A stretch of 64,000 nucleotides of DNA from Paenibacillus sp. 481 (GTDB taxonomy: Bacteria; Bacillota; Bacilli; Paenibacillales; Paenibacillaceae). The stretch is from NCBI RefSeq assembly GCF_021223605.1, contig NZ_CP075175.1:1139001-1203000 (forward strand), written 5' to 3'. Both the position numbers and the translations under genes were made by a program. Positions 4,487-23,431 of this stretch are shown here, piece after piece (the first letter of the stretch is position 1; each line of letters starts with the position of its first letter). The notes below the pieces were generated by a model. The model made no database searches, was not told the origin of the DNA, and worked only from the letters and a program-made list of their open reading frames with translations.

Positions 4487-4487
4487 G

Positions 4488-8526: not shown

Positions 8527-8530
8527 CCAC

Positions 8531-9015: not shown

Positions 9016-9033
9016 GATTAAATTCCTCCTTTG

Positions 9034-9561
9034 TTATAGTCCTAACTGTGAACGCATTTTTGCAAGGTAATCGACACCATCGATAATAAATTTAAAATTG
9101 TATTTGTCGATCTCAAGCAGCACTTTTCCACCAACCTCAAGTTTGTAATAAATGACTTCAAACTCATTTAATGAGTCTGTTGTCGCACCGACAGCTAGTT
9201 TTCCAGTTTCAAACTTTTTCGGAATCGCCCGAACCGAGGCCTTTATCCCCACTTGATCGTACGAGCTGGTGGTTGGATTGAAGACTTGTTCGGATGCTCG
9301 GAAGTCTAGTGCATGTGCAACTGGAGCTGCTAAACGAATAGCAGCTGGTTCAATCGCACGCCAATTCAATGTGCATGTCATGCTTGCGAGAGCGCCAATT
9401 GTTGGGCTGTTCACTTCTCCGAAAATTCCTGCACCCTTCACCGCCTCGGTAAGGGATTCGACGCTTGGTAACTGCACTTCGGATGTACCTAGGAACGTAC
9501 TACCGTTTAAGTACACCGTGTATTGGGATACTCTTTCAGCAATTTGTCGAGTCAATTTCAA
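9034..9561 (-). CDS. Major tail tube protein (P2 FII-like)
   Basis: A 175-residue protein of the contractile tail tube family. It contains YLNGSTFLGTSEVQLPSVES near the N-terminus and the C-terminal pattern YKLEVGGKVLLEIDKYNFKF, both typical of P2 FII. Tube rings stack beneath the sheath and form the DNA conduit. It follows the sheath gene with a 15-base gap, as in P2. Confidence 0.92.
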   Translation of the reverse strand: MKLTRQIAERVSQYTVYLNGSTFLGTSEVQLPSVESLTEAVKGAGIFGEVNSPTIGALASMTCTLNWRAIEPAAIRLAAPVAHALDFRASEQVFNPTTSSYDQVGIKASVRAIPKKFETGKLAVGATTDSLNEFEVIYYKLEVGGKVLLEIDKYNFKFIIDGVDYLAKMRSQLGL

Positions 9562-9576
9562 TTCCCCCTTCCTGTA

Positions 9577-11016
9577 TTAACCACCTATAGCACTCAGGTA
9601 CTGCGGATCGTATTCAATAAGAAAGCGCATTTCCTGCGCAGGCGTCGGCGGTGTAACAAAGATATGAAATTTGAGCTTGCCATTCATAAGATCGCTAGCT
9701 GGGTTTTCTTCTTTCAAAAATTCAACTCTACCACCCAGTATGAATTGATTCGCTTGTAAGCCGTTTAACCAAATGTTCAGGCTGTCTGTAACAGCTTCAA
9801 CGAGCCGTTTGTTTGCTGGATTATCTACGTATTTCCAATACGTGATTATAACTGTGTTGGAGATATAGTCGAACATTCGCCGTACAGCGATGAATGCTGC
9901 GACTGGGCTTGTATCATCAGGAAAGGCAGCTGTGCGGTTGCCCCATGCTTTGAATCCGCCAATGAAATTCAAAACAGTACTGATTCCGTGAGAGTTGATG
10001 AACTGGGCTTGGTCCGGCCCCAAAAGCAGTTCGTCACCGTTCTCCAACACAGCTGCATTAGCTTGGATTGCTTTGTTCGACGGACTCATGTATGGAACGC
10101 CGCCATTCTCGGCATCAAGTTTGCAAATCACTCCTGCCAGATGCGTCGATAGGTGATATTTTTTGCCGCCAAATTTCACTTTCGGAAAAGCTGCGATCTG
10201 ACGGTCGGAAGTGATTCGATTGTCATTTTTCCATTGCGGTAAGTCTGTATACTTCTTGTCTGCAGGTAAGTCCACAAGAACTTGTGCCTTGAAATGACCG
10301 TTTATGCTACCTGCTTTCGCGGCCATAACAGCCGCCACTACTGAATCATGTGAATAACCTGGGGCCAATACAAGACCAGGCAACACTCGATAGCGTGGGA
10401 ATACTTGATTCAACAACTCCAATCCTGTTACTTTTCCTGTGACAGAATCAACGCCGCCAACAATGTCAGTAGACTTGATTACGGTCGGGTCCAACTTGTC
10501 GTACCCTATTTGCAGTGATGTGACAGTTGGTAGAATCGCGCCTCCAGCTTTTGCCGTAACTACTAGGTGACCCACATCATTGAAGGCAGTTGTGTAGTCT
10601 TTACCTAATTGGTATGGCGTCGTGCCGTCCGATGACTTTACCTGCACACTTGCAGCCAAAACACCCTCAACTTTAATGGTGGCTACTCCCGCCGTAACAG
10701 GAACGGAAGCAGGAGCGACAGTTGCTTTGTGCTTGGACGGGTCCATAACATTAACAAAAACTACTGGTGACTGATTGTACAATTTGTAATGCGAGTCCAT
10801 AAACTCACATAAAGAAAATGATGTCCAATCATTTGAATACCCCAGCACTTCCACTGCTTCTGAAAAACTGTTGCAAAGTACAGGCGTATTAACTGCCGGC
10901 TGCTTCGCTAAATTTATCGGAGCCGTTCCGAACACGACAGGAACTGTCGCCTGTGGCGGCGCTGGCGAAAGAACCGATAGTGGAACCTCTTGTGTAAAAA
11001 CTCCATGCCGTTCCAT
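9577..11016 (-). CDS. Tail sheath protein (P2 FI-like)
   Basis: A 479-residue sheath protein. Family features include the N-terminal GVFTQEVPLS segment, the central LVLAPGYSHDSVVAAVMAAK block (around 215-235), GVICKLDAENGGVPYMSPSNK (around 295-315), and the C-terminal region with WKYVDNPANKRLVEAV. The C-terminal domain is the conserved contractile core. It is preceded by two small genes of uncertain function and followed by the tube gene. Confidence 0.95.
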   Translation of the reverse strand: MERHGVFTQEVPLSVLSPAPPQATVPVVFGTAPINLAKQPAVNTPVLCNSFSEAVEVLGYSNDWTSFSLCEFMDSHYKLYNQSPVVFVNVMDPSKHKATVAPASVPVTAGVATIKVEGVLAASVQVKSSDGTTPYQLGKDYTTAFNDVGHLVVTAKAGGAILPTVTSLQIGYDKLDPTVIKSTDIVGGVDSVTGKVTGLELLNQVFPRYRVLPGLVLAPGYSHDSVVAAVMAAKAGSINGHFKAQVLVDLPADKKYTDLPQWKNDNRITSDRQIAAFPKVKFGGKKYHLSTHLAGVICKLDAENGGVPYMSPSNKAIQANAAVLENGDELLLGPDQAQFINSHGISTVLNFIGGFKAWGNRTAAFPDDTSPVAAFIAVRRMFDYISNTVIITYWKYVDNPANKRLVEAVTDSLNIWLNGLQANQFILGGRVEFLKEENPASDLMNGKLKFHIFVTPPTPAQEMRFLIEYDPQYLSAIGG

Positions 11017-11023
11017 TGTTCTA

Positions 11024-11332
11024 TCATTCTCCTTTCAGTTTCAAGTAAGCTGCTCGTAGTGGTGTTCCCTGTTGCAGCATTTGCATCTGTGCTAATGGAA
11101 AATCTGAAATAGGTACAAACAATTCTCTTACTTCCGGCTTTCGTTCTATTACATCTTTCAAATATTCCGGAATACCGCCTATAAACGGCGTATACTGCAC
11201 AATTCGCCCATCTTCTATAGTTGGGCCGATGTAAATGAGATGCGGCTTTTCTTGTTGCACTTGCTTATTTTCTGGCTTTGCAACTTGTACCTGCGGCACT
11301 ATCTTGGGCGCTTCTTGATTTGCATCAGACAT
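11024..11332 (-). CDS. Hypothetical phage protein upstream of sheath
   Basis: A 102-residue protein with a Gln/Lys-rich, presumably disordered N-terminus (residues 1-30). A compact segment then holds IYIGPTIEDGRIVQYTPFIGGIPEYLKDVIE, followed by a helical C-terminus. I do not recognise a family. It lies 8 bases from the sheath gene and overlaps the preceding 158-residue gene by 8 bases, so it is co-translated with tail genes. The IPEYLKDVIERKPEVRELFVP stretch resembles small accessory proteins found near sheath genes in Bacillus phages, but that is only an impression. Confidence 0.7.
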   Translation of the reverse strand: MSDANQEAPKIVPQVQVAKPENKQVQQEKPHLIYIGPTIEDGRIVQYTPFIGGIPEYLKDVIERKPEVRELFVPISDFPLAQMQMLQQGTPLRAAYLKLKGE

Positions 11333-11801
11333 GATCTCTCACCTCCTGGAATATTCGCGGCGCTTCCCATAGCGTCGTCATTTCTGCCACCCAATGTGGG
11401 TTTGGCTGGTCTTCGTATACCTTCACTTTTAGAGGGAATTTCAACCTAAGTTTCCCGCCAAGAATGCGACTTTTAAGCACTGTTTGCCTAATCCCCTCAA
11501 TCAAGTTCACGACATCGATCACACCTTCTTCATCACGAGAAACCGTTCCGAAAAAGAGTTTCACTTGAACCGTTGACTCGTTTTCTTCATCGACACCTTC
11601 ATCTGCTCGCACGATGATAAACGGAAAGTCACTTTCTTGTGATTTGGGTGGATTTTGCTGGTTAGGAGCTGTTTTAGGCGGCAAATCCCAAATATGAATC
11701 CTTGGCGGCACAAGTTTGTTTGCAGAATCTCTTAGTCGCACTTTTTCTGTTTCGACTTCCAAAAAATCTTTCATGAGATATGTTGCAATGGCTAATGTCA
11801 C
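11325..11801 (-). CDS. Probable tail terminator / tail completion protein
   Basis: A 158-residue protein not confidently assigned. It has an N-terminal helix, the FPFIIVRADEGVDEENESTVQVKLFFGTVSRDEEG strand pattern and a long helix VVNLIEGIRQTVLKSRIL. This resembles the alpha/beta fold of tail terminator proteins, which cap the tail before head joining. The position right after the gpZ-like gene equals that of lambda gpU. The product is inferred from fold impression and gene order. Confidence 0.6.
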   Translation of the reverse strand: MTLAIATYLMKDFLEVETEKVRLRDSANKLVPPRIHIWDLPPKTAPNQQNPPKSQESDFPFIIVRADEGVDEENESTVQVKLFFGTVSRDEEGVIDVVNLIEGIRQTVLKSRILGGKLRLKFPLKVKVYEDQPNPHWVAEMTTLWEAPRIFQEVRDHV

Positions 11802-11815
11802 AATGGCCCTCCCTT

Positions 11816-12355
11816 CTAACGTAGCAGCCTATTTACTTCGTGAGTAAACCGCTGCGCCATCCTTCGTTCTGCTTCGCTTTCGACATGGTTCACAACTTCT
11901 TGATTCCCCATCATGCCTGGGACGGACGGGCCATATAGCTCCTGAATAGGGAGCCGGCGCTTACCAAGTCGCCTGAACGCTCCAATATGTCCATTTCGCA
12001 TTTCCCCAACGAATGCGCCCGCTACGGGTTTGAGCCCAGTACGTTTAACAGCAGCCTTTAATACTTTCGGCTGCCGTTTCGGTACTTTACTTGGGGTTGT
12101 CTTAAAACGCTTTAGCGGTATGTTCTCGGACCTCGACGACATCCTAGCTTTTAAGGCACTAGCATCGGTCGTGGTGATCCTAATGGTCGATTTTACTTCC
12201 GACGATTTGATATGGTAGCCCGCAGTCAGCTTACGTGTTGCCTCGGTTCCGACACCATGTATGGTGCGGTTCAGTGATGATGCGAGCGCCTTTGCTGCTC
12301 CATCTTTTAACTTACGGACCTGCTGTAAGACCTTTTTGGGCTCTAATGTGCTCAT
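11816..12355 (-). CDS. Minor tail protein Z-like (lambda gpZ family)
   Basis: A 179-residue basic protein. The N-terminal half (KDGAAKALASSLNRTIHGVGTEATRKLTAGYHIKSSEVKSTI) matches the gpZ pattern of R-x-LN, T and Y-x-I/V-x-x-x-x-I/V, and the C-terminal half is rich in Arg. In lambda, gpZ acts at tail completion or head joining. Finding it between an FII-like gene and a P2-type sheath is part of the mosaic nature of this prophage. The start overlaps the upstream gene by 4 bases. Confidence 0.75.
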   Translation of the reverse strand: MSTLEPKKVLQQVRKLKDGAAKALASSLNRTIHGVGTEATRKLTAGYHIKSSEVKSTIRITTTDASALKARMSSRSENIPLKRFKTTPSKVPKRQPKVLKAAVKRTGLKPVAGAFVGEMRNGHIGAFRRLGKRRLPIQELYGPSVPGMMGNQEVVNHVESEAERRMAQRFTHEVNRLLR

Positions 12356-12678
12356 GATGTATTTGCATCCAGCGTGATAGCTAGCAAGCCGTCCTCATCC
12401 TCAGCAGAAACAACGATGTAGTATTTACCGTCAAGTCGGACTTCTTCTCCGTCTTCTGGTTTATACCCCAGTTCAATTGGATCGGCATAAACAACTTTTT
12501 TAGACAAAGACACCCCAAACGTATGCGACGTGTGCGCATATGACATGGGGTGTTCTTTCAACATATTGTGATCCATTATTAAGCTGATTTGACGATCGTT
12601 CCATTGATGGGGAGTAGCAAACTCATCTGTATCCATAAATGTACCGACATCGCTTGCGAATGTGTCCCTCAGCTTCAT
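12352..12678 (-). CDS. Head-tail connector, FII-like
   Basis: A 108-residue protein with a mainly beta C-terminal half (KPEDGEEVRLDGKYYIVVSAEDEDGLLAITLDA). It occupies the place of lambda FII, between the capsid block and gpZ. Lambda-type FII proteins are annotated as head-tail joining or attachment proteins of this size and shape. It overlaps gpZ by 4 bases and the 84-residue gene by 4 bases. The call depends mainly on gene order. Confidence 0.65.
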   Translation of the reverse strand: MKLRDTFASDVGTFMDTDEFATPHQWNDRQISLIMDHNMLKEHPMSYAHTSHTFGVSLSKKVVYADPIELGYKPEDGEEVRLDGKYYIVVSAEDEDGLLAITLDANTS

Positions 12679-12929
12679 TCTTCGGTCACTGGAGCAACAT
12701 ATTCTCCTACACCTTCATCAACTGGTAATTCGGAATTCCCTTCAACATTTTCACTTCCAACGAGCGGTTGACTTGCAGCAATAACCTCAATCTCCTCCTT
12801 ACTAAGCGCCACAGCAAAACCCTCGGACACCAATCGCTTTGCTTCTTTGGCAGGAAGTCCTTCTATAACTGAGCCAATTTCATACACCGTGCCGCTGTAA
12901 CTGATCGACCATATAGCTCTGATTGTCAT
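12675..12929 (-). CDS. Hypothetical head-completion protein
   Basis: An 84-residue acidic protein. A short compact domain (WSISYSGTVYEIGSVIEGLP.KEAKRLVSEGFAV, residues 6-40) is followed by an acidic, Glu/Val-rich tail. The first part resembles small head fibre or FI-like proteins, but no family can be named with confidence. It lies between the major capsid gene and the FII-like gene, the position of lambda FI, and overlaps FII by 4 bases. Confidence 0.65.
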   Translation of the reverse strand: MTIRAIWSISYSGTVYEIGSVIEGLPAKEAKRLVSEGFAVALSKEEIEVIAASQPLVGSENVEGNSELPVDEGVGEYVAPVTEE

Positions 12930-12942
12930 CTTCTCTCACTCC

Positions 12943-13983
12943 CTATGCAACTTTAACTACATACCATGCATCGATATTTTCTGGGATTGGAATTGGTCGG
13001 CTCAGAAGAGTGATCTCCTCGATGCTATCATTCTCATTTACAATTCGACGCGCAACGCGTTCTGCAACGTGTGTAACCCATTGTTTGGATTTCGGATCGA
13101 TAAATGTGATCGCACCATGATTAAAATATGAACTTGTCTCACTGGAACCCATGAGATAGTGAAAATCAGGTACCATCGGTTTTTCCTCTTCCGTAAACGG
13201 ATCAACATACCACTCATTGTAAACGTAAATTTCCAAGCCTAATTCCGTTATTTTACCGACATAATCGACGGCCGCGCTAATGGGACGAGGAATTATCTCA
13301 CCCCGAATGATTCGACGACTTTCCATAGCTTTTATGACATTCGGGTTAGTAATAAACAACTCATATGTTTTCTCACTGAATACGACGATATTTGGAACAA
13401 TGCTGCTTTTTTGGCGAATCGTTGCTTTGCGACGACGCAATTCTGCGAGGGGATCGCTTTTTGGATCGCTCCACATGTCTGTACCAGCCAATACCTGCTT
13501 ATTCACAAATTCATAATCAAATTCTTCATCAATATCATCGTCTTTCATGCGAATTTTTCCACTGAATAGCAACTCAGAACTCATCTGTTCCTTTCTTCTG
13601 CTGACTTGCGTATCAAGGTCATCAATATCCTTTGCTACTATTTTAGCCGCACGTTCTTCTTCCGTTTGACCTGAGTAAATAAGTTCCCCAGGGAGACGCT
13701 TTTGAATTACGTCCCCATCAATCACTCTCTTCGGATTAATAAGCACTGGCGTAAATGTCTTCGTAACATACCCGTCGCGCTTAACTTCTTTCCCCTTTAA
13801 ATTGCGAGGGGATGAATAACGAGCAAGGCGACGCTTACCTTTTACAAAATCAATGTCTACGCGAGATGTTACGCTGGTTTCACTCCCAGAAAAAAATGTG
13901 TTTTTCAAGAAACTAAATGCAGGTGGCAACGATTCGATTACTCGTTGAAGCGTCCGCGGATCGTACAAATCAATTGGTGGCAT
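12943..13983 (-). CDS. Major capsid protein (lambda gpE family)
   Basis: A 346-residue protein with the layout of lambda-type capsid protein E. An N-terminal PPAFSFLKNTFF segment is followed by DIDFVKGKRRLARYSSPRNLKGKEVKRDGY (around 43-72), the KPKRVIDGD-like region and the E-loop area. The C-terminal half carries the YVDPFTEEEKPMVPDF block and ends in PENIDAWYVVKVA. It is preceded by the decoration protein gene as in lambda D-E order. It would form the HK97-fold icosahedral shell. Confidence 0.92.
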   Translation of the reverse strand: MPPIDLYDPRTLQRVIESLPPAFSFLKNTFFSGSETSVTSRVDIDFVKGKRRLARYSSPRNLKGKEVKRDGYVTKTFTPVLINPKRVIDGDVIQKRLPGELIYSGQTEEERAAKIVAKDIDDLDTQVSRRKEQMSSELLFSGKIRMKDDDIDEEFDYEFVNKQVLAGTDMWSDPKSDPLAELRRRKATIRQKSSIVPNIVVFSEKTYELFITNPNVIKAMESRRIIRGEIIPRPISAAVDYVGKITELGLEIYVYNEWYVDPFTEEEKPMVPDFHYLMGSSETSSYFNHGAITFIDPKSKQWVTHVAERVARRIVNENDSIEEITLLSRPIPIPENIDAWYVVKVA

Positions 13984-13996
13984 GTGTTATTCCTCC

Positions 13997-14353
13997 TTAT
14001 TTACCTACTCGTTTAATAAAAATACCAATGTTTCTGAGCGCCTGCTTGTGCTTATCAGCGGTGTCTGTGCCGCCAAATAACAACTCATCGCGGTTAAATT
14101 CACCCGTCAAGTAAATCAAAGCAACCTTATCTGCAAGCGTTGCATCCACATCATCTGCTAGAATAGCGACTGCCGTCTGTGAACCATCTGTTTTAATCGA
14201 ATCAACTAGCGTCGCTTTATTCTCCAACGTGATGATTCCTAACACAGATCCTCTTTTGTATGCACGTCCCATTTTCAATGTGATTCCGTCTTCTACAATT
14301 GGATATTCGCCTACCACTAACTGCTTATATTGCAACTCATTCTTTTGAATCAT
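13997..14353 (-). CDS. Head decoration protein D (lambda gpD-like)
   Basis: A 118-residue protein similar to lambda gpD, which trimerises on the expanded capsid and stabilises it. The pattern G.TLKMGRAYKRGSVLG near residue 25-40, followed by the DGSQTAVAILADDVDA region, is the family signature (K.G.VLG...G.......A...A..ILA.DVDA). It lies between protease and capsid, as in lambda. It overlaps the protease gene by 4 bases. Confidence 0.92.
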   Translation of the reverse strand: MIQKNELQYKQLVVGEYPIVEDGITLKMGRAYKRGSVLGIITLENKATLVDSIKTDGSQTAVAILADDVDATLADKVALIYLTGEFNRDELLFGGTDTADKHKQALRNIGIFIKRVGK

Positions 14354-15468
14354 TGCGTAACACCTCGATTCTTATTGATTAAACCTACGATCAAATTCGC
14401 GGCTGCGTCTACTTTGCCGCCACTATTTTGAAAACCAAAATCAGAAGTAACATGAGCGGCGCCAGAATTGTTCGAATCATCAAGCAAGCTAGCAACGATT
14501 CCACCGCGGCGGCTTGCGTCGGCTTTCAAAATATCAATAGCCGCCTGTGCTGCAGTCGCGAACGATTCATATTTTGCCTTGTTCACAACCGCTGTGGCCC
14601 CCGGTGTGTTTGCCAATTGGTCCAAAGCTTTCAAACGAGTTCGTTCCTGCTCAATCCCTTGATTGGTAGCTGCAGCATAAATACTTGGATGAAGTGCCGC
14701 AAATTTTTCAAGCGTCATTTCATCGTTTTGCGGCGGCTGCGATTTACTTCCGTTTTGATTTGGTTGTGGCATCGCAAGGACACTCGCAACTGTACTTAAT
14801 GCTGATTGAGTTGTTGCTTTGTTCTCATGTGGTAATTCAGGTGCATTCATAAACTTTGAGAAGTCCACTGTGACCCCATTAAATACAGCGTTTTTCCCTC
14901 GCAAAGATGCTGAAATTTGTACCGTTTGTTCAATTTCAGTAGCAAATCCATTTTCGATTGCTTCGTCCGGAAGAAACCATTTTTCAGCATCCATAAGAGA
15001 TTTAATTTCATCAGCACTTAAACCAGTCTTTTCGGAATACACCTCAACGAGTGCATCACGAATTTTATCCAAGACATCTGCTGTATGGCGAAGCTCATTG
15101 GACTCAGCACCCCACACACTGGTCCAAGGATTATGAATCATCATCATTGAGCCTTTCGGCATGATGATCTTGTCACCAGCGCATGCAATAATCGATGCGA
15201 TCGATGCGGCCAAACCTTCAACTCGCACAGTTATCTTTGCTTTGTGTTCTTTCAGCAACTGATAGATATGCAAGCCCGCAAATACATCACCACCACCACT
15301 ATTCAGCCGTACGACAATCTCATCTACATCTCCTAGTGCATTTAAGTCGTCTCTGAATTTTGCTGGCGTTACCGCATCTCCCCACCAACTAAATTCAGCA
15401 ATTGGACCGTACATCGTAAGTTCGCCGCTATTGTTCGTCTTCTTCATGCTCCAGAATATTTTTGGCAC
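14350..15468 (-). CDS. Head maturation protease, ClpP-type (S14)
   Basis: The ORF is open from 15480, but that GTG sits inside the Shine-Dalgarno sequence (AGGAGGTGA). The GTG at 15468, about 9 bases further on, is the better start and gives 372 residues. The ClpP-like domain shows LNSGGGDVFAGLHIYQLL, the nucleophile region GLAASIAS (Ser about 89) and MMMIHNPWT (His about 112). The C-terminal part beyond residue 220 is scaffold-like and low in complexity. It cleaves scaffold and prohead proteins. The start overlaps the portal gene end by about 40 bases. Confidence 0.88.
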   Translation of the reverse strand: MPKIFWSMKKTNNSGELTMYGPIAEFSWWGDAVTPAKFRDDLNALGDVDEIVVRLNSGGGDVFAGLHIYQLLKEHKAKITVRVEGLAASIASIIACAGDKIIMPKGSMMMIHNPWTSVWGAESNELRHTADVLDKIRDALVEVYSEKTGLSADEIKSLMDAEKWFLPDEAIENGFATEIEQTVQISASLRGKNAVFNGVTVDFSKFMNAPELPHENKATTQSALSTVASVLAMPQPNQNGSKSQPPQNDEMTLEKFAALHPSIYAAATNQGIEQERTRLKALDQLANTPGATAVVNKAKYESFATAAQAAIDILKADASRRGGIVASLLDDSNNSGAAHVTSDFGFQNSGGKVDAAANLIVGLINKNRGVTQ

Positions 15469-17002
15469 TTGGTTTGTCACCTCCTGATTTAATCAAGCTT
15501 GTTTCTTGCATCATTTTTTCTTCCCGCTTCCGCTGCTTCATGTTTACCTCATAATCTCCACCCGTAAGTTCGGCTGTCTCGCGCTCTCTCGTACTGAATC
15601 CTTCTTCTACCCGCTTCGATGCCGCATTTACTTCTTTCAGCGGATCTATTTGACCTGGCGATGGTCCATGCCATTCAGCTTTGGTGTAAGCGCGGCGAAT
15701 GATTGGATCGTCAAAGAAGCCTGGCGCATATATCCGACCTTTCGCCACAGCTTCAGCAAACCATTCCTCATACACAGGTTGGCAAAAATCAGCTGCCAAC
15801 CATGAACGGCGCATGCGGAACATCTTCCACGCTTCCAAAAGTGCGGCACGACTGGCGCTATAGGATGCGGTAAAGTGCTTAACCAATAGCTCGTAAGGAA
15901 TTTCAAGTGCAGCTCCGATTTGCCTTAGTATGGCTGTAACAAATCCATCAAAGGCCGTATTTGGTCGACCAGGATTAGCTGTTTCAACGGACTCGCCAGG
16001 AGCAAGGCCAACAATTGCTCCATTCCCCAATTCGTACCCGTATTCATCATTTGGGTCGATTTCTTCGCCATAGCTTAAACCCTCAGCGAGCATTCCATTT
16101 TGGGGTGCTTCCGATTTTACAAACACCGTGAACATACCACTCACAACAGCGGCCATTAGCTCCGCTTCTGTGTACCGTCCAAGTTGCTTTAATGCCTCGA
16201 TGACTGGAGCCAGCAAAGGGACGCCGCGCCGCTGATCCGGCCTCTCACTTTCCATGAGGTGAATGAGGTTACGCCGCCCAGTTTTTCGCCCAAACGCTTC
16301 AACTCGTGTCCACTCCCTTTTAACGGATCGTTTCGACAGTGGGTGTTTGTTCAAAAAATGATAGGCTACGACTTCGCCTGACGGTGAGCACTCAACACCG
16401 CCTATAATGTCTCGTCCTTCCTTGCGGTCAGGATCACAGCACCGATCTGCTTCCAGTAAGCGAATGCGTAAGTCGTAGACGCTATGAGGCCGTGGTTGCA
16501 TTGGTAAAAGTGCAAAGCAGTCACCACTCATGAGCTGACTTAAAAATGCGAGCTGTTGCAATTCGTAGAAGTTATTTAATCTCATTGCGTCGCAATCGTA
16601 TGACTCACACCACAGTTCAAACTCCCGCTTTATGGTCCTCTTCAATTCGTCTGCCTGTTCGTCGCTCAGTTTTAAAAAATCCACATCAACAGCCGGCTTC
16701 AATTTCAAACCTGTTCCAACAACATTAGTTCGAGTTGTCTTTAGTGCACCAGTTGCAAGTGTTGCTCCACCCATGTATAAATCACGGGAACGCTGTCTCA
16801 ACACGTCCAGATTGTCAATGATGTCCTCGTCGGGGCTACCTCCGCCAAACTGCCAACCTAGCAGAGATTTTTTTCTTCTGCTAGCCCCATGATGGGAATA
16901 ACCGCTGTTCAGCACGTTCAGTTTTTGACGAGCTGCTTCCCTTTTTAAAGCCCAGCTAGGAGCAACAGACACAATCATGCGGTCGATAATATTGGGCATC
17001 AT
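15428..17002 (-). CDS. Phage portal protein (lambda gpB family)
   Basis: A 524-residue portal protein of the lambda family, forming the dodecameric ring at the capsid vertex. Visible family features are the early RSRDLYMGGATLATGALKTTRTNVVGTGL block (around 70-98), LLEADRCC, the WHGPSPGQIDPLKE motif near residue 445 and the ETAELTGGDY segment near the end. It sits downstream of gpW-like and terminase genes and overlaps the gpW-like gene by 4 bases. Confidence 0.95.
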   Translation of the reverse strand: MMPNIIDRMIVSVAPSWALKREAARQKLNVLNSGYSHHGASRRKKSLLGWQFGGGSPDEDIIDNLDVLRQRSRDLYMGGATLATGALKTTRTNVVGTGLKLKPAVDVDFLKLSDEQADELKRTIKREFELWCESYDCDAMRLNNFYELQQLAFLSQLMSGDCFALLPMQPRPHSVYDLRIRLLEADRCCDPDRKEGRDIIGGVECSPSGEVVAYHFLNKHPLSKRSVKREWTRVEAFGRKTGRRNLIHLMESERPDQRRGVPLLAPVIEALKQLGRYTEAELMAAVVSGMFTVFVKSEAPQNGMLAEGLSYGEEIDPNDEYGYELGNGAIVGLAPGESVETANPGRPNTAFDGFVTAILRQIGAALEIPYELLVKHFTASYSASRAALLEAWKMFRMRRSWLAADFCQPVYEEWFAEAVAKGRIYAPGFFDDPIIRRAYTKAEWHGPSPGQIDPLKEVNAASKRVEEGFSTRERETAELTGGDYEVNMKQRKREEKMMQETSLIKSGGDKPSAKNILEHEEDEQ

Positions 17003-17238
17003 AAGTCACGTGGGATAGCTCGCATGACACGCACGCCAGAGTGCCGCCCACGCTCCAAACGTGCAACCTCATTGCTCCAAAATCGAATCTGAGACATTAT
17101 GTCCTGCAAATCTACACGCTGCAGCTGCCGTGTACCAATACGATACGATTGTCCCGTACTCACTTTTGCCTCAGCGTCCATCCACATCTGCAATCTCGCT
17201 TTTGCTTCCGTTAATGTCCAACTCATCTCCCTTTTCAC
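16999..17238 (-). CDS. gpW-like head-tail joining protein (DUF6148-type)
   Basis: A 79-residue protein with the pattern LTEAKARLQMWMDAEAKVSTGQSYRIGTRQLQRVDLQDI followed by an IRFWSNEVARLE helix. This matches the small gpW-like proteins common in Firmicute phages between terminase and portal. In lambda, gpW plugs the portal after packaging. It overlaps the portal gene by 4 bases. Confidence 0.85.
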   Translation of the reverse strand: MKREMSWTLTEAKARLQMWMDAEAKVSTGQSYRIGTRQLQRVDLQDIMSQIRFWSNEVARLERGRHSGVRVMRAIPRDL

Positions 17239-17253
17239 CTCCTTTCGTGGGGT

Positions 17254-19119
17254 TTACGTAACGCCTCGGCTGATTACCTTTCTGCGCTGCGGCTGTTTTG
17301 GAGCATCAAAAAAACCGCTCGGTTTGAGCGGTTCATCAAGTTTAGGATTTAATATTTCAATTGCTGCTCGATTGTACACCGCTAAGTCGAGCGGTTCGTT
17401 TCGAGCTCTCACTCGGACCCAAACGTGGTAAGGGGCTCCCATCTTGTAACGTTTTTGCATTACCTCCGCAGTTAGTCCCTCGAAATATTGCATCTCATAT
17501 CCCCGATTTCGCTCGGGGGTGGTAAGCGGAAAATGGCAATATCCTTGTGTTTTATTACCTTCCTTATCCGTCGGTGGCAAAGCAACAGCGCTCATGACCT
17601 TCGATTTACCTTCATTTACGCCTAAGCGAATAACCATCGCTCTGTAACGGTTATTCTGAGAAGTGCCTATTATCAACGGCAGATAGGTTCCATCACCTGA
17701 ATCCTCACCCTTAATAGCAAATACCCTACGGACTTCACGAGGTTTGCAAAATCTATAAACCTCATTCGTGAAGTGACCACCTGAGTCCATACATGTAATT
17801 GCAATAGAAAACTTCCGTCCCTCCGCATCTTTCCATATCCGCTTTAGATATTCGTCCAAGTCTGTCCATACTTGAGATTGATTCAAATCACCATAAATCA
17901 CGTGATACTCAATGCGCCAATTTTCATGGCCAGCGCCCCAGCCCTGCACTTCAATCTCAAAACGGTTGTCTTGAGTATCCACGGCTGCAGTTAAAACTTT
18001 GACACCGCTAGGAACATCAGCGTGATACATTTCGCGGCGATTGTATAATATTTCATGGTCCATGACCTCGACTTTTTCTTCCCACGATTCTGCCAAAACC
18101 GTGTTAAAAAAAGTTTTTAGCAATTCCGAACCGCCTTGATTAGCCTTATACCAATCGTTGACGATGCTCTTCCAAGTTACATTGATAGTTGCGTACAAAC
18201 TACTAAGCTGGAAACCGCGAACTGTAGCATGCTTTTTTCGAGCTACCCAGGTACCGCGTGAGCCCATATCCTTCTTCCACTCAAACTCTGCATGAAGAGT
18301 TCCACAGTGTTCACAAGCATGATCAACTTTGGTACATTGACTTGTTTCTTTGTCATATTCAAATTTAAGCCGCTTCCACTCCAATACTTGCAGTTCATCA
18401 CAAGACGGACATGGCAATTGGAACTGTTCCATCGTGCTGTCATTATAGAGCGATTCAATTTTCGAAATCCCTTTTACAGTCGGCGTCGAAACCAAGACAA
18501 GCTTTTTATTATAAAATGTCTTAGTACGCGCTGTTACCAACGAAACCGGATCGCCCTCTTTACCTGCCGACAATGGAAAACGATCAACTTCATCGGCAAT
18601 AACCACTCGAATCGGCTTAGAAGCCAATGATGCAGGTGAATTTGCTCCAGCGATGTTGATCCTGCCGCCTGGAAATGACTTATAGAGAATAGTATTTCTG
18701 CTGTCTCGGCTTTTATCTTTCACAATAAGCTTTGATAGCTGCGGCGAATCGCGGTACATGGGCGTTAGACGGTCATTTGAAAAGTCTCTTGCAACCGTCA
18801 AATCTGGTTGTATTACCATTATTGGCGCTGGATCGTGGCCTGTGAAATACCCGATCGTATTAAGCTGAATGTCCGTTTTACCTAACTGAGCAGCCCACAT
18901 ACACACTACCATTTCGATTAATGGATCAGATATAGCCCTCATTGGCTCCCGTTGATAAGGAGCGCGGTCAGTATTCCACGGACCAGGTTCCGCAGATGCT
19001 TCTGGCGATAGCACTCGATGTTCGTCTGCCCATTCATCTATACCGATCAGAGGCGGAGGAGCGACAAGCTTTACGATGCTGCGGAGTAATTCAAGAGTTT
19101 GGCGCTTTTGTCGGTTCAT
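17254..19119 (-). CDS. Terminase large subunit (lambda GpA family)
   Basis: A 621-residue packaging ATPase and nuclease of the GpA family. Visible features include the DEWADEHRVLSPEASAEPGPWNTDRAPYQREPM opening, MWAAQLGKTDIQLNTIGYF (adenine and Walker A-like region), VIADEVDRFP (Walker B), VLVSTPTVKG, the zinc-binding CPSCDELQVLEW with later CEHCG, and the nuclease segment with TAAVDTQDNRFEIEVQGWG. It overlaps the small subunit gene by 4 bases. Confidence 0.95.
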   Translation of the reverse strand: MNRQKRQTLELLRSIVKLVAPPPLIGIDEWADEHRVLSPEASAEPGPWNTDRAPYQREPMRAISDPLIEMVVCMWAAQLGKTDIQLNTIGYFTGHDPAPIMVIQPDLTVARDFSNDRLTPMYRDSPQLSKLIVKDKSRDSRNTILYKSFPGGRINIAGANSPASLASKPIRVVIADEVDRFPLSAGKEGDPVSLVTARTKTFYNKKLVLVSTPTVKGISKIESLYNDSTMEQFQLPCPSCDELQVLEWKRLKFEYDKETSQCTKVDHACEHCGTLHAEFEWKKDMGSRGTWVARKKHATVRGFQLSSLYATINVTWKSIVNDWYKANQGGSELLKTFFNTVLAESWEEKVEVMDHEILYNRREMYHADVPSGVKVLTAAVDTQDNRFEIEVQGWGAGHENWRIEYHVIYGDLNQSQVWTDLDEYLKRIWKDAEGRKFSIAITCMDSGGHFTNEVYRFCKPREVRRVFAIKGEDSGDGTYLPLIIGTSQNNRYRAMVIRLGVNEGKSKVMSAVALPPTDKEGNKTQGYCHFPLTTPERNRGYEMQYFEGLTAEVMQKRYKMGAPYHVWVRVRARNEPLDLAVYNRAAIEILNPKLDEPLKPSGFFDAPKQPQRRKVISRGVT

Positions 19120-19649
19120 GAGTCATCACGTTTCAACGGATCGTATTTAGAAAGCTCAAAAAGCGCTAAATTCACACGTTTTTCAAGCATGACTCGAATT
19201 TCTTTAGGATCAGTCATATAAGACAGTTCATTCGCCAATTTTGGCGGTAAACTGGTCAAATTTGACCTAAAAACGACTATTAGCCCCCCCCACGCGTCCT
19301 GCACATCTGCTGTAGTGTGCAAATTACCCCGTTTTTCCTCTAGCTCAAGCTGCGCAATCTCTTTTTTAACTTGTTCATGTTCTGCTTTTATGTCCCGATA
19401 ACTTAGCTTGCCATCTGTAGACTCCCCTTCAATGTGATTCAGGTATGCCTTTATAGCATCGCCAAGCTTATATTTCTTCCCTGACTTCTTGATGATTCCA
19501 TCACGATTCAGTTTCCTGATCCACACATCGGATTTGCCAACCAAAGAAGCTAATTGACTCGCTGAAACCTCTAATTCATCGATTTTCTCCCCTTTCGCCA
19601 TAAGCTCACCCGCTTTCGATTTGTAATGAAATGTACTTTCGCTTTTCAC
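19116..19649 (-). CDS. Terminase small subunit (Nu1-like)
   Basis: A 177-residue DNA-packaging protein of the Nu1 type. The N-terminal winged helix-turn-helix (ELEVSASQLASLVGKSDVWIRKLNRDGIIKKSGKKYKLGD, about 24-64) is the cos recognition domain. It is followed by a charged coiled-coil region (EHEQVKKEIAQLELEEKRGN). The C-terminal part interacts with the large subunit in the family. A better start may be the internal Met near residue 14 (MAKGEKIDELEVSASQ), which is preceded by a GGTGAG purine run. Confidence 0.88.
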   Translation of the reverse strand: MKSESTFHYKSKAGELMAKGEKIDELEVSASQLASLVGKSDVWIRKLNRDGIIKKSGKKYKLGDAIKAYLNHIEGESTDGKLSYRDIKAEHEQVKKEIAQLELEEKRGNLHTTADVQDAWGGLIVVFRSNLTSLPPKLANELSYMTDPKEIRVMLEKRVNLALFELSKYDPLKRDDS

Positions 19650-19810
19650 TCACTCAAATACACATTGATTTTTGGCGCATCAGATGAAGAAAAAATTTAC
19701 AAAAAAACTCCTGTTCATGCGACTTAGTGTAAAAACGAAAGTGAATTTAAAAATTAAAGTCTACTCGGTTTTCGGGGCTGCGCGCACCCGCATTAAAAAT
19801 AAAACTCCCA

Positions 19811-19885
19811 AAGTACCTACGCTGCAGCTCTAACACCTACTGTGTACCACTACAGCGCATCCTCAGCACCTACTCCGTGCCACTG
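19811..19885. repeat. Imperfect repeats upstream of terminase genes, candidate packaging-site (cosB-like) elements
   Basis: Three copies of ACCTAC occur at 19815-19820, 19835-19840 and 19868-19873. The last two sit in an imperfect 22-bp repeat (CACCTACTGTGTACCACTAC and CACCTACTCCGTGCCACTGT). They lie directly upstream of the Nu1-like terminase gene, where lambda-type phages keep cos and the terminase-binding R sites. No cohesive-end cut site can be read from the sequence alone. Confidence 0.35.
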
Positions 19886-20087
19886 TCAATCGCGGCCGCC
19901 TGCTCATGACTTGATGCCGCATGCGGTTGAGTTGCCGTACTGTTTCATATTGTGGTCGCTTGTCAGTTGCGAGCCACAGTGAACATAGTGGAACAAACTC
20001 ACTGAATAGACGATGTAACTCTATTAGTTCGTTTGTTAATGATTCAACTGCTTCTCGTATTTTTTCGGCCTCTTCTTTTCCGAGCAT
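19863..20087 (-). CDS. Hypothetical phage protein
   Basis: A 74-residue mainly helical protein (MLGKEEAEKIREAVESLTNE start) with a good ribosome binding site (GAGGGAGG) 7 bases ahead of ATG. The C-terminal 20 residues are Arg-rich. It overlaps the end of an upstream small membrane protein gene and lies between that gene and the terminase block. No family is recognised. Its C-terminal codons coincide with the repeat region proposed as a packaging signal. Confidence 0.6.
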   Translation of the reverse strand: MLGKEEAEKIREAVESLTNELIELHRLFSEFVPLCSLWLATDKRPQYETVRQLNRMRHQVMSRRPRLTVARSRC

Positions 20088-20223
20088 GATGAGCCTCCCT
20101 CAAAATAGATATAGTCAATGTCCCAAAGGCAACCACGCTCATGAACAACCAAAGCCACCAATAGTTTACGAACTTCTCGCCTTCCGTCATATGGATCATG
20201 TCATTAATAAAGGTTTGAATCAT
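20044..20223 (-). CDS. Small phage membrane protein
   Basis: A 59-residue ORF starting MIQTFINDMIHMTEGEKFVN, with one strongly hydrophobic segment (WWLWLFMSVVAFGTLTISIL, residues 22-41) and a basic C-terminus (KRRGRK). Its ATG overlaps the stop codon of the preceding gene (CGATGA), and GAGGTGA lies upstream, so it is probably translationally coupled. No function can be assigned; holin-like or superinfection roles are possible for proteins of this shape. Confidence 0.5.
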   Translation of the reverse strand: MIQTFINDMIHMTEGEKFVNYWWLWLFMSVVAFGTLTISILREAHHARKRRGRKNTRSS

Positions 20224-20396
20224 CGCTGCGTGTCACCTCTATACGTTGAATCTCTTTCTGCCATATGGGTGTATATGAGTAACAATGCAATTAATATTGC
20301 TGCATCAATGTTGCCTAATAATGTGCAGACTGCTATACATCCATAATGAACTGCCTTGGATATCTTCCATTGGTTTATCAAGAACCAACGCTTCAT
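20220..20396 (-). CDS. Small phage membrane protein
   Basis: A 58-residue ORF. The ATG at 20396 (MKRWFLINQWKISKAVHYGC) lies 8 bases from GGGG and is preferred over an upstream GTG inside the Shine-Dalgarno region. It has two short hydrophobic stretches (AVHYGCIAVCTLLG and AAILIALLLIYTHM). The stop codon overlaps the start of the next small membrane gene by 4 bases. It lies just downstream of a terminator that closes the Pmp3-like gene. Confidence 0.5.
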   Translation of the reverse strand: MKRWFLINQWKISKAVHYGCIAVCTLLGNIDAAILIALLLIYTHMAERDSTYRGDTQR

Positions 20397-20406
20397 GTAT
20401 ATCACC

Positions 20407-20437
20407 CCACAAAAAAAGCACCCTCGGCGGGTGCTGG
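20407..20437 (-). terminator. Rho-independent terminator after the Pmp3-like gene
   Basis: On the minus strand AGCACCC and GGGTGCT form a 7-bp stem with a 5-base loop, followed by seven T residues. It lies 10 bases past the stop codon of the Pmp3-like gene. Confidence 0.88.
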
Positions 20438-20446
20438 CTCTAATTA

Positions 20447-20659
20447 TTAATGTCGTGATGATCGAATTAGTTCGGCTTGCTTTATCATACGCTTATTTGC
20501 CTTATGCTCGCTTACTACCAGAAACGCGTGAATCATCCCTGGAATAATAAAACACAGAGTCAAAAGAAAATTAAGCAGCGCTTGAATAGGTTTGCCGCAA
20601 AATAATACTGCAACAGGCGGCAAAAGAATGGCGAGTAAATACATACCATGATCACTCAC
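20447..20659 (-). CDS. Pmp3/YqaE family small membrane protein
   Basis: A 65- to 70-residue protein with the Pmp3/YqaE family pattern of two membrane helices. The core ILLPPVAVLFCGKPIQALLNF and LCFIIPGMIHAFLVV (residues about 10-48) is diagnostic. In yeast and plants Pmp3 proteins modulate membrane potential and salt tolerance; bacterial roles are poorly known. The first in-frame start is GTG at 20659, but the ATG at 20644 (MYLLAILLPP) is equally plausible because no clear ribosome site precedes either. It lies inside the phage segment, so it may be cargo. Confidence 0.82.
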   Translation of the reverse strand: MSDHGMYLLAILLPPVAVLFCGKPIQALLNFLLTLCFIIPGMIHAFLVVSEHKANKRMIKQAELIRSSRH

Positions 20660-20803
20660 TTTCGCAAGGTTTAAGCGCAGTATAACATTCCATGTTTTAC
20701 CTAATCAATCGTTATTTCTCTTTTGGCCCGAAACAAATGGTGAATATTAACACGCATGATAATAATGAGACAAATAGCATTAAGATACACCGCATAACTT
20801 CAT

Positions 20804-21550
20804 TCAACATATTTTGTAGCCTGCTTCACCGAGCGGATTGAGCCAAGGAACATAACTGGCGTTCTTACTGAAATCGAAATCGGACTGCGTTTTGACATCG
20901 CTTAGCACTGTGAGGCCCTTTAATGCTTGTATATTCTTTATTTCCTGCATTCTATCTAGTGTCCATTGCCCTGCTGCGTCGTGGAAGTCTTCCCACATAA
21001 TACCGTCCACGTGCAGGCATGAATGATAACGAAGCGTGTGAAAGCCTCTGTTCTGGATGATCAGCCCTTCTGTGTTCGTTGCTCGAATATCTGCAATCAG
21101 CTGCAGCAATCCTGCGTGTTGCTTAGCTTTATCATTCGCCGTAAAGTGATCTTTCTCTGCGATGTCCGCAACAGTGTCGAAGAACACACCGTCAAGGCCA
21201 AGCCCCATGATAAGCCTTTTGTACTCGCTTAGTAAGATGCTGCGGTAATGCGCTTGACTAATGTCCATTTGATAGGACTTCCATTGTGGGAAACGGTACG
21301 GCACACCTTTCACGTGGAAGTAGTCACTTGTACGTAGTTGGTTTAAGTAGGGAACAGCTTCGTTTGCTTGCATTGTGGACAGATAACCGACCACTAACGC
21401 TCCCTTAGACTTGATTGTCTTCACCATTTCTTTTGTGAGAAAATTTGCCTCCATGATGACTAACCCGTAATCCGCTAATTTAAGCTGCTGTTCTGGCGTC
21501 GGGTTTTCATAGAAGACTCGGAAACTTTTGACTCCTCTAAACTTGTCCAT
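20804..21550 (-). CDS. GH114-like glycoside hydrolase (endo-alpha-1,4-polygalactosaminidase family)
   Basis: The ORF opens at 21565, but ATG 21550 (MDKFRGVKSFRVFY) is better placed behind GGAGATGA and gives 248 residues. The fold is a TIM barrel of the GH114/TM1410 type. Visible strands are YGLVIMEANFL, GALVVGYLST, the GLGLDGVFFDTVAD active-site strand (about 120-133), GLIIQNRGF, DGIMWEDF and LTVLSDV. Family members cleave galactosaminoglycan-type polymers. No signal peptide is seen, so in a phage setting release would need lysis. It is flanked by terminators and is probably a cargo gene. Confidence 0.75.
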   Translation of the reverse strand: MDKFRGVKSFRVFYENPTPEQQLKLADYGLVIMEANFLTKEMVKTIKSKGALVVGYLSTMQANEAVPYLNQLRTSDYFHVKGVPYRFPQWKSYQMDISQAHYRSILLSEYKRLIMGLGLDGVFFDTVADIAEKDHFTANDKAKQHAGLLQLIADIRATNTEGLIIQNRGFHTLRYHSCLHVDGIMWEDFHDAAGQWTLDRMQEIKNIQALKGLTVLSDVKTQSDFDFSKNASYVPWLNPLGEAGYKIC

Positions 21551-21582
21551 GATCTTCATCTCCATTCATTTTTTATAAAAAC

Positions 21583-21610
21583 AAAAAAACGTCACTCGGA
21601 AGAGTGACAT
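21583..21610 (-). terminator. Rho-independent terminator
   Basis: On the minus strand GTCACTC and GAGTGAC pair around a TTCC loop and are followed by GTTTTTTTG. It ends any transcript coming from the repeat region at 21.6-22.0 kb just before the GH114-like gene. Confidence 0.8.
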
Positions 21611-21689
21611 TTGCGACGTATATATATTTACTAAGTACGTAAACAGTAGAAGATCTAAATATAAGTAACTATATATAGTTATTCTTGTT

Positions 21690-21905
21690 TGTGTTCAAAT
21701 TGCTGTTCAAAACGTTGTTCACGCACATGGCGCAAACCCTTGTGGCTCTAAGGGAAATACCTGCTCAAATCGTTGTTCAAATCGTTGTTCACTTGCTGTT
21801 CAAATCGCTGTTCAGCAGAGTGGTGAAATCCCTTACCCCGTATGGCCTCAAGGTTGCTCAAAACGTTGTTCATCAGGGGTCCGAAAAACCTTACATGGGC
21901 TCAAA
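21690..21905 (-). repeat. Cluster of short repeats built on GAACAACGATTT
   Basis: On the minus strand the 12-base unit TGAACAACGATT and variants (TGAACAGCGATT, TGAACAACGTTT, TGAACAGCAATT) recur at least eight times. They are arranged in three blocks, each preceded by a divergent spacer beginning GAGCCC or GAGGCC. One minus frame of about 41 codons (MNNVLSNLEAI to DLSRYFP) is open across two blocks but has no convincing ribosome site. I cannot assign a function. The region from 21,566 to 22,151 has no other gene, only this cluster and two terminators. Confidence 0.7.
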
Positions 21906-22007
21906 TTAGCTTGGGAAATAATTCGAACTTGATCATCGAACAAATACCGCATCAAAAGAGCCTTCATAAATAGCTTTCCCTACGCGTGCAATCTTCATTC
22001 GAGACAA

Positions 22008-22036
22008 CAAAAAAGGCGACCTGATTAGTCGCCCGA
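22008..22036 (-). terminator. Rho-independent terminator downstream of truncated gerE
   Basis: On the minus strand GGCGAC and GTCGCC pair around a 7-base loop and are followed by TTTTTTG. It lies about 115 bases after the gerE stop codon, on the phage side of the presumed junction. Confidence 0.8.
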
Positions 22037-22151
22037 CTGCCCGTCTTATGAAATTATCATGTTACAAATATAACACAGGGAAATCAAAGCAACACACACA
22101 TTATAGACAAAAATCACATAATATTCGCGCAAAAAACATGCACTGTTTTAG

Positions 22152-22319
22152 TTAGTCTTTATTATACATCAGCTTTGAGATATGGTTACGTACTGTTTTT
22201 TCACTAATAAACAGCTGCTGCGCGATATCTCGGGTCGTTTTGTCCTGAACGAGCAATTCAAAGACTTCACGTTCACGATTAGTCAACAAAAATTTACTTT
22301 TGTGATCGCTACCCTTCAA
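22152..22319 (-). pseudogene. gerE: gerE, 5' portion only (LuxR/GerE-type sporulation regulator truncated at prophage junction)
   Basis: A 55-codon ORF with TTG start behind AAGGAGG. Residues 10-48 match GerE, the late mother-cell regulator of spore coat genes: FLLTNREREVFELLVQDK and then the HTH ISEKTVRNHIS. B. subtilis GerE has 74 residues and continues with the QKLGVKGRSQAVVEL helix. Here the sequence diverges after NHIS and stops at KLMYNKD, so the fourth helix, needed for dimerisation in this family, is absent. The divergence coincides with the start of phage DNA. It could be a prophage-split gene rejoined by excision, or a decayed paralogue. The gene identity is firm; the split-gene reading is inference. 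Confidence 0.85.
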
Positions 22320-22498: not shown

Positions 22499-23431
22499 CT
22501 ATCGAACTCCTGGCGCGGTGTAATTCGTTCGGTTAGGCATCGTTGGATAGTTCGGTGGATAGTTGTTGCCACCTGGATAGCCAGTGCCATTGTATCCACT
22601 TGCATTAGTCGGGAACACACGGTAGAGCATTTCCTCGAATTCGGTAGCAAACCCAGACAACGGCTTTCCGTTAGCCGTATGACGCTTGTAGTCATTTAAA
22701 CGTCCTACAAAGTCAGGGTTCTCGGACACATATACGTTGCGACAGTTTGGCGCCTCTTTTTTCACGATATTCGCAATATGATGCTTCAGTTGCGGATCAA
22801 GAGTGTCGTAATTCGCCGTGTTGTTGTACGTCGTATTGTGGTTACGCATCGTACCATTATTGTGCGTCATATTGTTGTTATGCATCACATTGTTGTTATG
22901 CATCACATTGTTGTTATGCATCACATTGTTATTACGCACGCCGTTATTGTGCGTCAGGCTGTTGTTCGTGACGCCATTTCGATTAGTTCCGTACGATTTC
23001 GCTGTTGAATGGTCTGTCGTCACAGCGACATAGGCGTTATTGTTCGTGATGATAACGTTAGCCGATTTGACCCCTTTAATGCCTGCGATTTTATTAGCAA
23101 TGTCCTGATGCATTTGCAAATTGCCAACGCTGTGTGCGCCATAACGTCCACTGTGCGCACCGTTATTATAGCGGCCCGTGCCGTAACCACTATAGTTGCC
23201 AGCGCCATTATGATTCCGATAACCGTCATAACCGTAATTGTTATACGTCCGGTTTCCATCGTGGTTGGTCATCGGATTAAGACCATTTGTAGTTGAGTTA
23301 TAGCGCATGCCGGTCGGGTTATTCAAGCTATTCGGGGTCACATTATTATTGCTGGGGGTTGTACAAGCCGTTAACCCCGTTGTCATTACTAACGCAGCTG
23401 TCAGTGCCAGTAAAGTCGCTTTGATTCGCAT
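22499..23431 (-). CDS. YhcN/YlaJ family sporulation lipoprotein with Asn-rich repeat
   Basis: The start is ATG 23431, behind AAGGAGG, giving 310 residues. The ORF extends upstream, but only this start yields a lipoprotein signal (MRIKATLLALTAALVMTTGL then TAC, lipobox Cys about 22). A YhcN/YlaJ-type domain is visible in two parts: IANKIAGIKGVKSANVIITNNNAYVAV before the insert and ANIVKKEAPNCRNVYVSENPDFVGRLNDY after it. Between them lies an Asn/His/Met-rich insert with an MHNNNV repeat. Homologues are forespore-made spore lipoproteins. The N- and C-terminal regions are also Asn/Gly/Tyr-rich. Confidence 0.85.
   Translation of the reverse strand: MRIKATLLALTAALVMTTGLTACTTPSNNNVTPNSLNNPTGMRYNSTTNGLNPMTNHDGNRTYNNYGYDGYRNHNGAGNYSGYGTGRYNNGAHSGRYGAHSVGNLQMHQDIANKIAGIKGVKSANVIITNNNAYVAVTTDHSTAKSYGTNRNGVTNNSLTHNNGVRNNNVMHNNNVMHNNNVMHNNNMTHNNGTMRNHNTTYNNTANYDTLDPQLKHHIANIVKKEAPNCRNVYVSENPDFVGRLNDYKRHTANGKPLSGFATEFEEMLYRVFPTNASGYNGTGYPGGNNYPPNYPTMPNRTNYTAPGVR
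22868..22932 (-). repeat. 18-bp tandem repeat encoding MHNNNV
   Basis: Three or more consecutive copies of an 18-bp unit (plus strand atgcatcacattgttgtt) lie inside the YhcN/YlaJ gene, with degenerate copies on both sides. The unit is a multiple of three, so copy number changes would keep the frame. Confidence 0.9.

Follow-up and report, generated by a model that had tools for sequence, protein, structure and literature searches.

Results

The two ends of gerE in Paenibacillus sp. 481

The window, by which we mean the whole stretch of DNA analysed, comprises 64,000 nucleotides of the Paenibacillus sp. 481 genome beginning at genome position 1139001, and it contains a truncated gerE reading frame (22152-22319, minus strand) that runs into phage DNA. 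This 55-codon frame has a TTG start with AGGAGG eight bases upstream, is GerE-like up to ..VRNHIS and then ends in a divergent tail (KLMYNKD, stop). It matches positions 3-42 of the 57 in the PF00196 profile (E 9.9e-15), and the match and the reading of the frame together bear out the original prediction of a 55-codon ORF with a strong ribosome-binding site that is GerE through NHIS and diverges afterwards; the span then proposed, 22100..22319, is exact at 22319, while its start at 22100 takes in about 50 bases beyond the stop codon. Because the crossover core sits at 22174-22181, bases 22152-22173 are already element DNA. The missing 3' part of the gene lies outside the window, 46.5 kb to the left of the 5' piece and on the same strand, and in a whole-genome profile search it matches PF00196 profile positions 36-55. 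The features of the two ends are (window coordinates unless marked genome):

22176..22319, minus strand: gerE 5' part, codons 1-48, host-derived, with its own TTG start and AGGAGG ribosome-binding site; also recovered with the 5'-piece query
22174..22181, minus strand: 8-bp crossover core ATCTCAAA, which is TTTGAGAT on the plus strand, common to the left end
22152..22173, minus strand: element-derived tail of the truncated ORF (..KLMYNKD, stop)
22499..23431, minus strand: host gene upstream of gerE, sporulation lipoprotein of the YhcN/YlaJ family (PF09580, E 8.5e-23)
genome 1114550-1114636, minus strand: gerE 3' part, reading HISNVMQKLNVKGRSQAVVELIKLGELKI and then stop
genome 1114626-1114633: left copy of the 8-bp core
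genome 1114665-1116257: large serine recombinase
genome 1116214-1116429: small ORF, candidate directionality factor

Both ends carry ATCTCAAA in register, and joining them there in silico gives a 74-residue GerE that is 99-100% identical to the intact 74-residue GerE present in 16 of the 19 genomes of the genus (strain 481 being among the 19); in the other three gerE is split. The rejoined protein would be a full-length and putatively functional product. The attachment site of the element is an imperfect inverted repeat (16 of 28 positions) centred on AA of codon 49, the best of the centres tried, and this AA is the putative exchange dinucleotide. An 11-bp repeat between the two ends was also considered as the core and was rejected as out of register with gerE, the in-register 8-bp core being taken.

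The prediction had placed the rest of gerE to the left of position 1, and it is found there, on the minus strand and beside a large serine recombinase. A full-length gerE elsewhere and a left prophage end lacking the C-terminal half were the two observations, among those accessible to computation, that would have spoken against a split gene, and neither was made: the 5.69-Mb genome yields 13 PF00196 matches with no other intact gerE among them, 11 lying in ORFs of 219-631 codons and the remaining two being the gerE pieces. ORFs resembling the YhcN/YlaJ gene occupy the equivalent place in two other genomes with split gerE (G004 and G012), as judged by eye only.

The prophage between the pieces

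Between the gerE pieces, inserted at codon 49, lies a 46.5-kb contractile-tail prophage that looks complete. With both halves of the gene located, a shared core, an in-frame join and phage genes in between, the proposal that a prophage interrupts gerE has held. The right half of the element falls within the window, and its left half, with the recombinase, the small ORF and the gerE 3' part, lies left of position 1. Its recognised genes in the window are:

1..22173, minus strand: right half of the 46.5-kb prophage
463..1578, minus strand: tail fiber protein (PHROG 7037, E 8.8e-38)
2206..3330, minus strand: baseplate wedge subunit (PHROG 6, E 8.3e-78)
5731..8526, minus strand: tail length tape measure protein (PHROG 1533, E 8.4e-90)
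9577..11016, minus strand: contractile tail sheath (PHROG 23, E 1.3e-88)
12943..13983, minus strand: major head protein (PHROG 29, E 2.8e-64)
14350..15480, minus strand: head maturation protease (PHROG 94, E 2.6e-84)
15428..17002, minus strand: portal protein, 524 aa, open (PHROG 537/21 on the last 242 residues)
17254..19119, minus strand: terminase large subunit (PHROG 15, E 1.9e-228)
19116..19649, minus strand: terminase small subunit (PHROG 57, E 4.6e-29)

Further open frames in the 46.5 kb encode an endolysin, RecT, DnaB, helicase-loader-type proteins and repressor-type regulators, so that the gene set of an intact temperate contractile-tail phage, from terminase to repressor-type regulator, is present as open frames. 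The large serine recombinase (530 aa) has Resolvase, Recombinase and Zn-ribbon domains, and its stop codon is 28 bp from the gerE 3' part. At the right prophage end, the product of a gene at 20804-21565 (minus strand) shows weak similarity to glycoside hydrolase families GHL15/GH114 and is a possible cargo gene, and imperfect short repeats (GTTGTTCAAA-like, identified by eye) cluster nearby at 21690-21880.

Split gerE across the family

Of 394 family genomes queried with the rejoined GerE, 376 gave a match (E <= 1e-15). Best E-values were bimodal, with 333 genomes at 1e-33 or better and 43 between 1e-28 and 6e-18, and the 5' and 3' pieces were searched separately in those 43 and in 5 of the 18 genomes without a match. 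Both pieces lie on one contig, in the right order and on the right strand, 2.6-63 kb apart, in 36 of the 394 genomes; five more (G087, G156, G196, G221, G310) have the pieces on different contigs, which brings the total to 41. One candidate (G094) was dropped as a frameshift with its pieces 10 bases apart. Two others stand outside the count: G294 has a 3' piece only (the full GerE query matches at E 6.4e-23, the 5'-piece query does not match), and G286, one of the genomes that the full query did not match, shows a recombinase and a 3' piece together with a damaged 5' piece and is not counted among the 36.

SpoIIID, like GerE a short mother-cell regulator, served as a control in 118 family genomes, where 108 full-length matches and no split gene were found; gerE is split on one contig in 14 of them. 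The 10 genomes without a full-length SpoIIID match all belong to one genus (g17, G375-G390), in which gerE has no match in any of 16 genomes either. This suggests loss of sporulation genes rather than splitting, and the lineage is probably non-sporulating.

Both ends were in hand for 35 of the 41 fetched loci and rejoin in frame in 34 of these (32 to 74 residues, 2 to 73), the single failure being a locus with three 3' copies (G232) at which the last copy, taken by rule, was the wrong one. Read by eye, AA stands at codon 49 on both ends in all 34. The in-register run common to both ends ranges from 2 to 24 bp, and because it is short in some loci the exact exchange point is deduced from the common dinucleotide.

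Several gerE 3' copies occur at one locus in G156, G178, G232, G233 and G354, which hints at insertions stacked on one another or at elements carrying a gerE 3' end of their own. In Paenibacillus wynnii, one of the named-genome recombinase loci described below (L225) has an uninterrupted gerE followed by a second gerE 3' fragment and what is left of a recombinase, perhaps from an element that broke down once it had provided a new 3' end.

A recombinase family and its small ORF

A recombinase of the window's family was detected in 36 of the 41 fetched split-gerE loci. In G050, G141 and G291 it is at the other end (loci L172, L184 and L169 respectively, taken as these genomes); at six loci (L169, L172, L176, L184, L191, L226) the recombinase adjoins the gerE 5' piece in inverted orientation, and elements of opposite polarity appear to use the same gerE slot. 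The recombinase ORF of the G173 element is broken, so some splits may be dead.

A scan of named genomes with the single recombinase as query found no relative; a 30-sequence recombinase alignment as query recovered 60 loci in named genomes, many of which repeat survey genomes. Within a fetched flank of up to 4 kb, 50 of the 60 carry a gerE piece, and these include records from Bacillus, Mesobacillus, Neobacillus, Peribacillus, Aneurinibacillus, Anoxybacillus (a MAG) and Alicyclobacillus. Of the 10 whose flank shows no such piece, one (L205/G072) has its gerE piece 5.3 kb off. In viral contigs a gerE piece accompanies the recombinase in 8 of 25 loci and none is seen in 17, many of the contigs ending near the recombinase.

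In 54 of 56 loci, the window's locus included, an ORF of about 40-105 codons belonging to one homologous family lies just upstream of the recombinase start or overlaps it; it was not found in a Peribacillus and an Alicyclobacillus tolerans locus. The 56 are a chosen set of 34 survey loci, 21 of the 60 named loci and phage Lily, from which about ten distinct named loci were left out (Aneurinibacillus and distant Alicyclobacillus among them) and L196 was dropped as having no intact recombinase ORF. The profile was seeded with six of the ORFs, and the six seeds alone recover 49 of the 56. Against 3304 other ORFs of the same loci it has one match, the second copy of the module in a tandem duplication. 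That duplication (L103, G045, 554-6019) consists of two identical tandem copies of a kinase-like ORF, the small ORF and the recombinase inside one gerE. None of five members tried has a significant Pfam match, and one of eight tried matches, at E 7.4e-6, a PHROG of unknown function. The small ORF is a candidate recombination directionality factor solely on the grounds of where it lies and how well it is conserved.

Element size and cargo

The recombinase tree has 63 rows, namely 56 loci and 7 close database relatives. A supported clade of 30 rows (100/93) holds the window's prophage, the Paenibacillus larvae phage Lily and elements of about 41 kb or more. Nested among these phage recombinases are those of small elements: G312 (2.9 kb) groups with G339 (53 kb) and G354 (about 41 kb), G045 (5.7 kb) stands beside the recombinase of Cohnella sp. 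OV330 (L172, taken as G050, 60 kb), and G320 (9.3 kb) and G147 (9.8 kb) are likewise nested. Such nesting of small with large elements is expected if selection preserves excision, and from the tree we read it as prophage decay or cargo exchange in which the excision pair was retained.

Elements with no recognised phage genes lie outside the 30-row clade. Two of them (G004 and G012) carry a type IV pilus operon encoding PilB, PilT, PilC, pilin-type and PilM-type proteins and a likely prepilin peptidase (L050 of G012, 2665-14552; L051 of G004, minus strand), which, as the cargo of gerE-splitting elements, would be lost from the mother cell on excision. A PilT-like match (E <= 1e-60) occurs in 6 of the 19 genomes, where only G004 and G012 are close (94-100%) and the other four stand at 42-44%. 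Anti-phage defence candidates occur in the G072 element (L104; AbiEi/AbiEii and a ThsA/SIR2-type protein), a defence-type reverse transcriptase (UG17) in the G180 element (L109), and transport and two-component genes in the G178 element. The smallest, G287 (L110, 2.6 kb), G312 (L111, 2.9 kb) and G313 (L112, 3.2 kb), are near-minimal modules in which the small ORF and the recombinase are joined by one other recognised ORF each, the three extra ORFs being a DUF1360, a DUF2935 and a DNA methylase.

Conservation of the gerE halves

Measured to the nearest intact congener and summed per genus and piece (9 genomes, two genera), pN/pS is 0.007-0.033; in one of these comparisons, at pS 0.79, synonymous sites are almost saturated. 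Taken across every pair of split genomes, the ratio is 0.060 for the 5' and 0.030 for the 3' piece. Low values of this kind may predate insertion and by themselves are no proof of selection while the gene was split. The pieces in the two pilus-carrying genomes (G004 and G012) differ at 8 codons, all synonymously, and would have been kept under selection while split if the pilus element was inherited vertically; the two recombinases are only 66% identical.

Timing of excision

Within 75 bases upstream of the small ORF, the motif CATA-N3-[TC]A occurs in 26 of 54 loci, where shuffled sequences give 2.8 (sd 1.6) and random positions 1.7 (sd 1.3); the motif was chosen after inspecting examples, and the loci are related to one another. 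It resembles the -10 box of the mother-cell sigma factors (sigma-E/K). The pattern is absent in 28 of the 54 loci, and strain 481 has CATAGGCTT, one base off. A looser -10-like pattern, CATA..T, occurs in 34 of 54 loci against 18.1 expected, and patterns for sigma-E and sigma-K that include the -35 element are not clearly enriched (4 and 6 of 54 loci against 2.3 and 2.9, sd 1.6).

Experiments on the gin element, which splits gerE of Bacillus cereus ATCC10987, also bear on timing: in the available text of that report, gin is excised at mid-sporulation by GirC with the 42-residue GirX (PMC5595907). From these experiments and the comparison above, we infer that excision in strain 481 is timed to sporulation.

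Discussion

A probable developmental switch at gerE

We regard it as quite probable that the prophage in codon 49 of gerE is cut out by its recombinase pair in the sporulating mother cell of strain 481 and that gerE is thereby rebuilt. The recombinase would have inserted the phage at AA of codon 49 and would be able to remove it again with the help of the small protein, acting as directionality factor. During sporulation the pair would be made in the mother cell, the prophage excised there and gerE rebuilt, and the rebuilt GerE would act late in spore coat formation; the mother cell would then die while the spore retains the prophage. The same pair may also serve ordinary prophage induction. 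Since gerE is dispensable in growing cells, the insertion would cost little.

The strongest competitor to this switch is an ordinary prophage that uses gerE as attB by chance and leaves by SOS-type excision only, the spores of most lysogens being GerE-deficient at a cost. The element does look like a whole, possibly active phage, the exact sigma-E/K-like motif is missing ahead of the small ORF in strain 481, and lysogens of the phage Xeni_IDv2 arose in culture, as far as the available text of that study describes (PMC12453123). What such a phage leaves unaccounted for are the elements with no recognised phage genes, down to 2.6-3.2 kb, that keep the recombinase and small ORF with gerE in frame, a retention not explained by phage induction. 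It also sits poorly with the conserved gerE halves, though divergence before insertion could give like values, and with gin, which according to the portion of the report at hand is excised during sporulation and is not mitomycin-inducible (PMC5595907). We consider chance use of gerE by an ordinary prophage unlikely.

Very unlikely, in our judgement, is that the prophage inactivated gerE for good, in a lineage that sporulates without GerE or is losing sporulation. Decay of this kind may occur elsewhere in the family: none of the 16 genomes of genus g17 gave a gerE match and none of the 10 sampled there a full-length SpoIIID, gerE of G094 is frameshifted, and the recombinase of G173 is broken. 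In strain 481, SpoIIID is full length and no interruption is seen in sigK (242 codons) or in a sigE-like ORF (261 codons, so named by deduction); the reading frames of the recombinase and of the two gerE halves are open and conserved, and the core is still present at either end. An assembly or strain-mixture artefact joining phage DNA to gerE is scarcely credible, given a single 5.69-Mb contig (99.85% complete), a second gerE half that turned up where it was predicted, on the expected strand and with the core in common, and the same layout on single contigs in 35 further genomes. With mobile DNA in the same slot in many related spore-formers, the split gerE is probably a widespread developmental switch and not a dead gene.

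Codon 49 as a possible docking slot

In about one in ten of the sampled family genomes gerE is split at the same dinucleotide by elements that range from 2.6 to 63 kb and have very different contents, but whose recombinases belong to a single family, as do their small ORFs. We lean towards a broader reading in which codon 49 of gerE is a docking slot across Bacilli, and the recombinase and the small protein are a portable module whose cargo is removed only in the dying mother cell. If this is true, any DNA could live in a late spore gene, be it a phage, a pilus, defence or transport operon or the module alone, and the cargo would stay in the growing cell and the spore. The elements would be tied to sporulation and protected by it, and the host would gain, or tolerate, a genetic timer on GerE. 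Why mother-cell genes are targeted, what the host gains, if anything, and by what route a prophage turns into a minimal switch are questions that these elements make testable; they also provide naturally occurring recombinases paired with their att sites and with candidate directionality factors, and they bear on lysogeny by phages of a honey-bee pathogen.

Comparison with known systems

The splitting of gerE is already known, and the prophage in strain 481 is a further case. Split sporulation genes appear in the literature, so far as the texts available cover it, as a handful: sigK, spsM, spoVFB, spoVR, yabG and the gerE of B. cereus. The frequency, the cargo range and the two-gene module of gerE elements were not found in the literature searched, a body outside which most subscription papers and all bioRxiv preprints fall.

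The closest likeness is to gin. According to the available part of its description, gin splits the same gene at a core, CATCTCAAA, for which AA was proposed as the exchange dinucleotide, yields a 74-residue product, and has a large serine recombinase with a small directionality factor, for which we have a candidate; GirC and GirX were matched by description only (PMC5595907). The prophage of strain 481 is likewise inserted at codon 49 through CATCTCAAA and AA, with 8 of the 9 bases of CATCTCAAA common to both ends because the 5'-end copy reads TATCTCAAA. In contrast, gin is described there as 28.6 kb with no phage genes and three recombinases, girA, girB and girC, and its sporulation-specific excision has been demonstrated, whereas the timing in strain 481 is deduced (PMC5595907). 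The element here is a whole contractile-tail prophage with one recognised recombinase of the family, and since the phage gene set is present it is not a gin element.

Prophages in gerE have been met in other hosts as well. The same report, in the text available, describes a prophage in gerE of Bacillus glycinifermentans BGLY, of another host family, whose integrase is 52% identical to GirC (PMC5595907). The recombinases of the P. larvae phages Xenia and Lily are about 50% identical to that of the window, and this group shares the gene order activator, small ORF, recombinase. As described in the accessible text of the Xeni_IDv2 study, that phage opened at its base 38,418 on entering gerE of P. 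larvae, and nine bases were duplicated (PMC12453123). The core of Xenia, a related phage in a different record, is placed by us at 38,415-38,425, where the Xeni_IDv2 integration was mapped. Unlike the resident prophage of strain 481, Xeni_IDv2 was there observed integrating, as newly arising phage-resistant lysogens (PMC12453123).

Three properties of the strain 481 element are those of the skin, SP-beta and gin elements generally: mobile DNA splits a sporulation gene of the mother cell that has no second, intact copy in the genome, the element encodes its own serine recombinase at one end, and an exact join at the short core common to both ends gives back the whole frame. By description, skin in sigK of B. 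subtilis, vfbin and vrin are of the same kind in other genes. The skin element of Clostridioides difficile is reportedly another sporulation gene split by a phage-like element. SP-beta in spsM of B. subtilis (PMC4191935) and yin of Clostridium botulinum (PMC10747680), likened by description from the texts available, are also elements, phage-like in the former case, that split sporulation genes other than gerE. Elements of the SP-beta, skin and yin kind have a recombinase and, where it has been identified, a directionality factor, the same pair that we propose for the prophage in gerE of strain 481.
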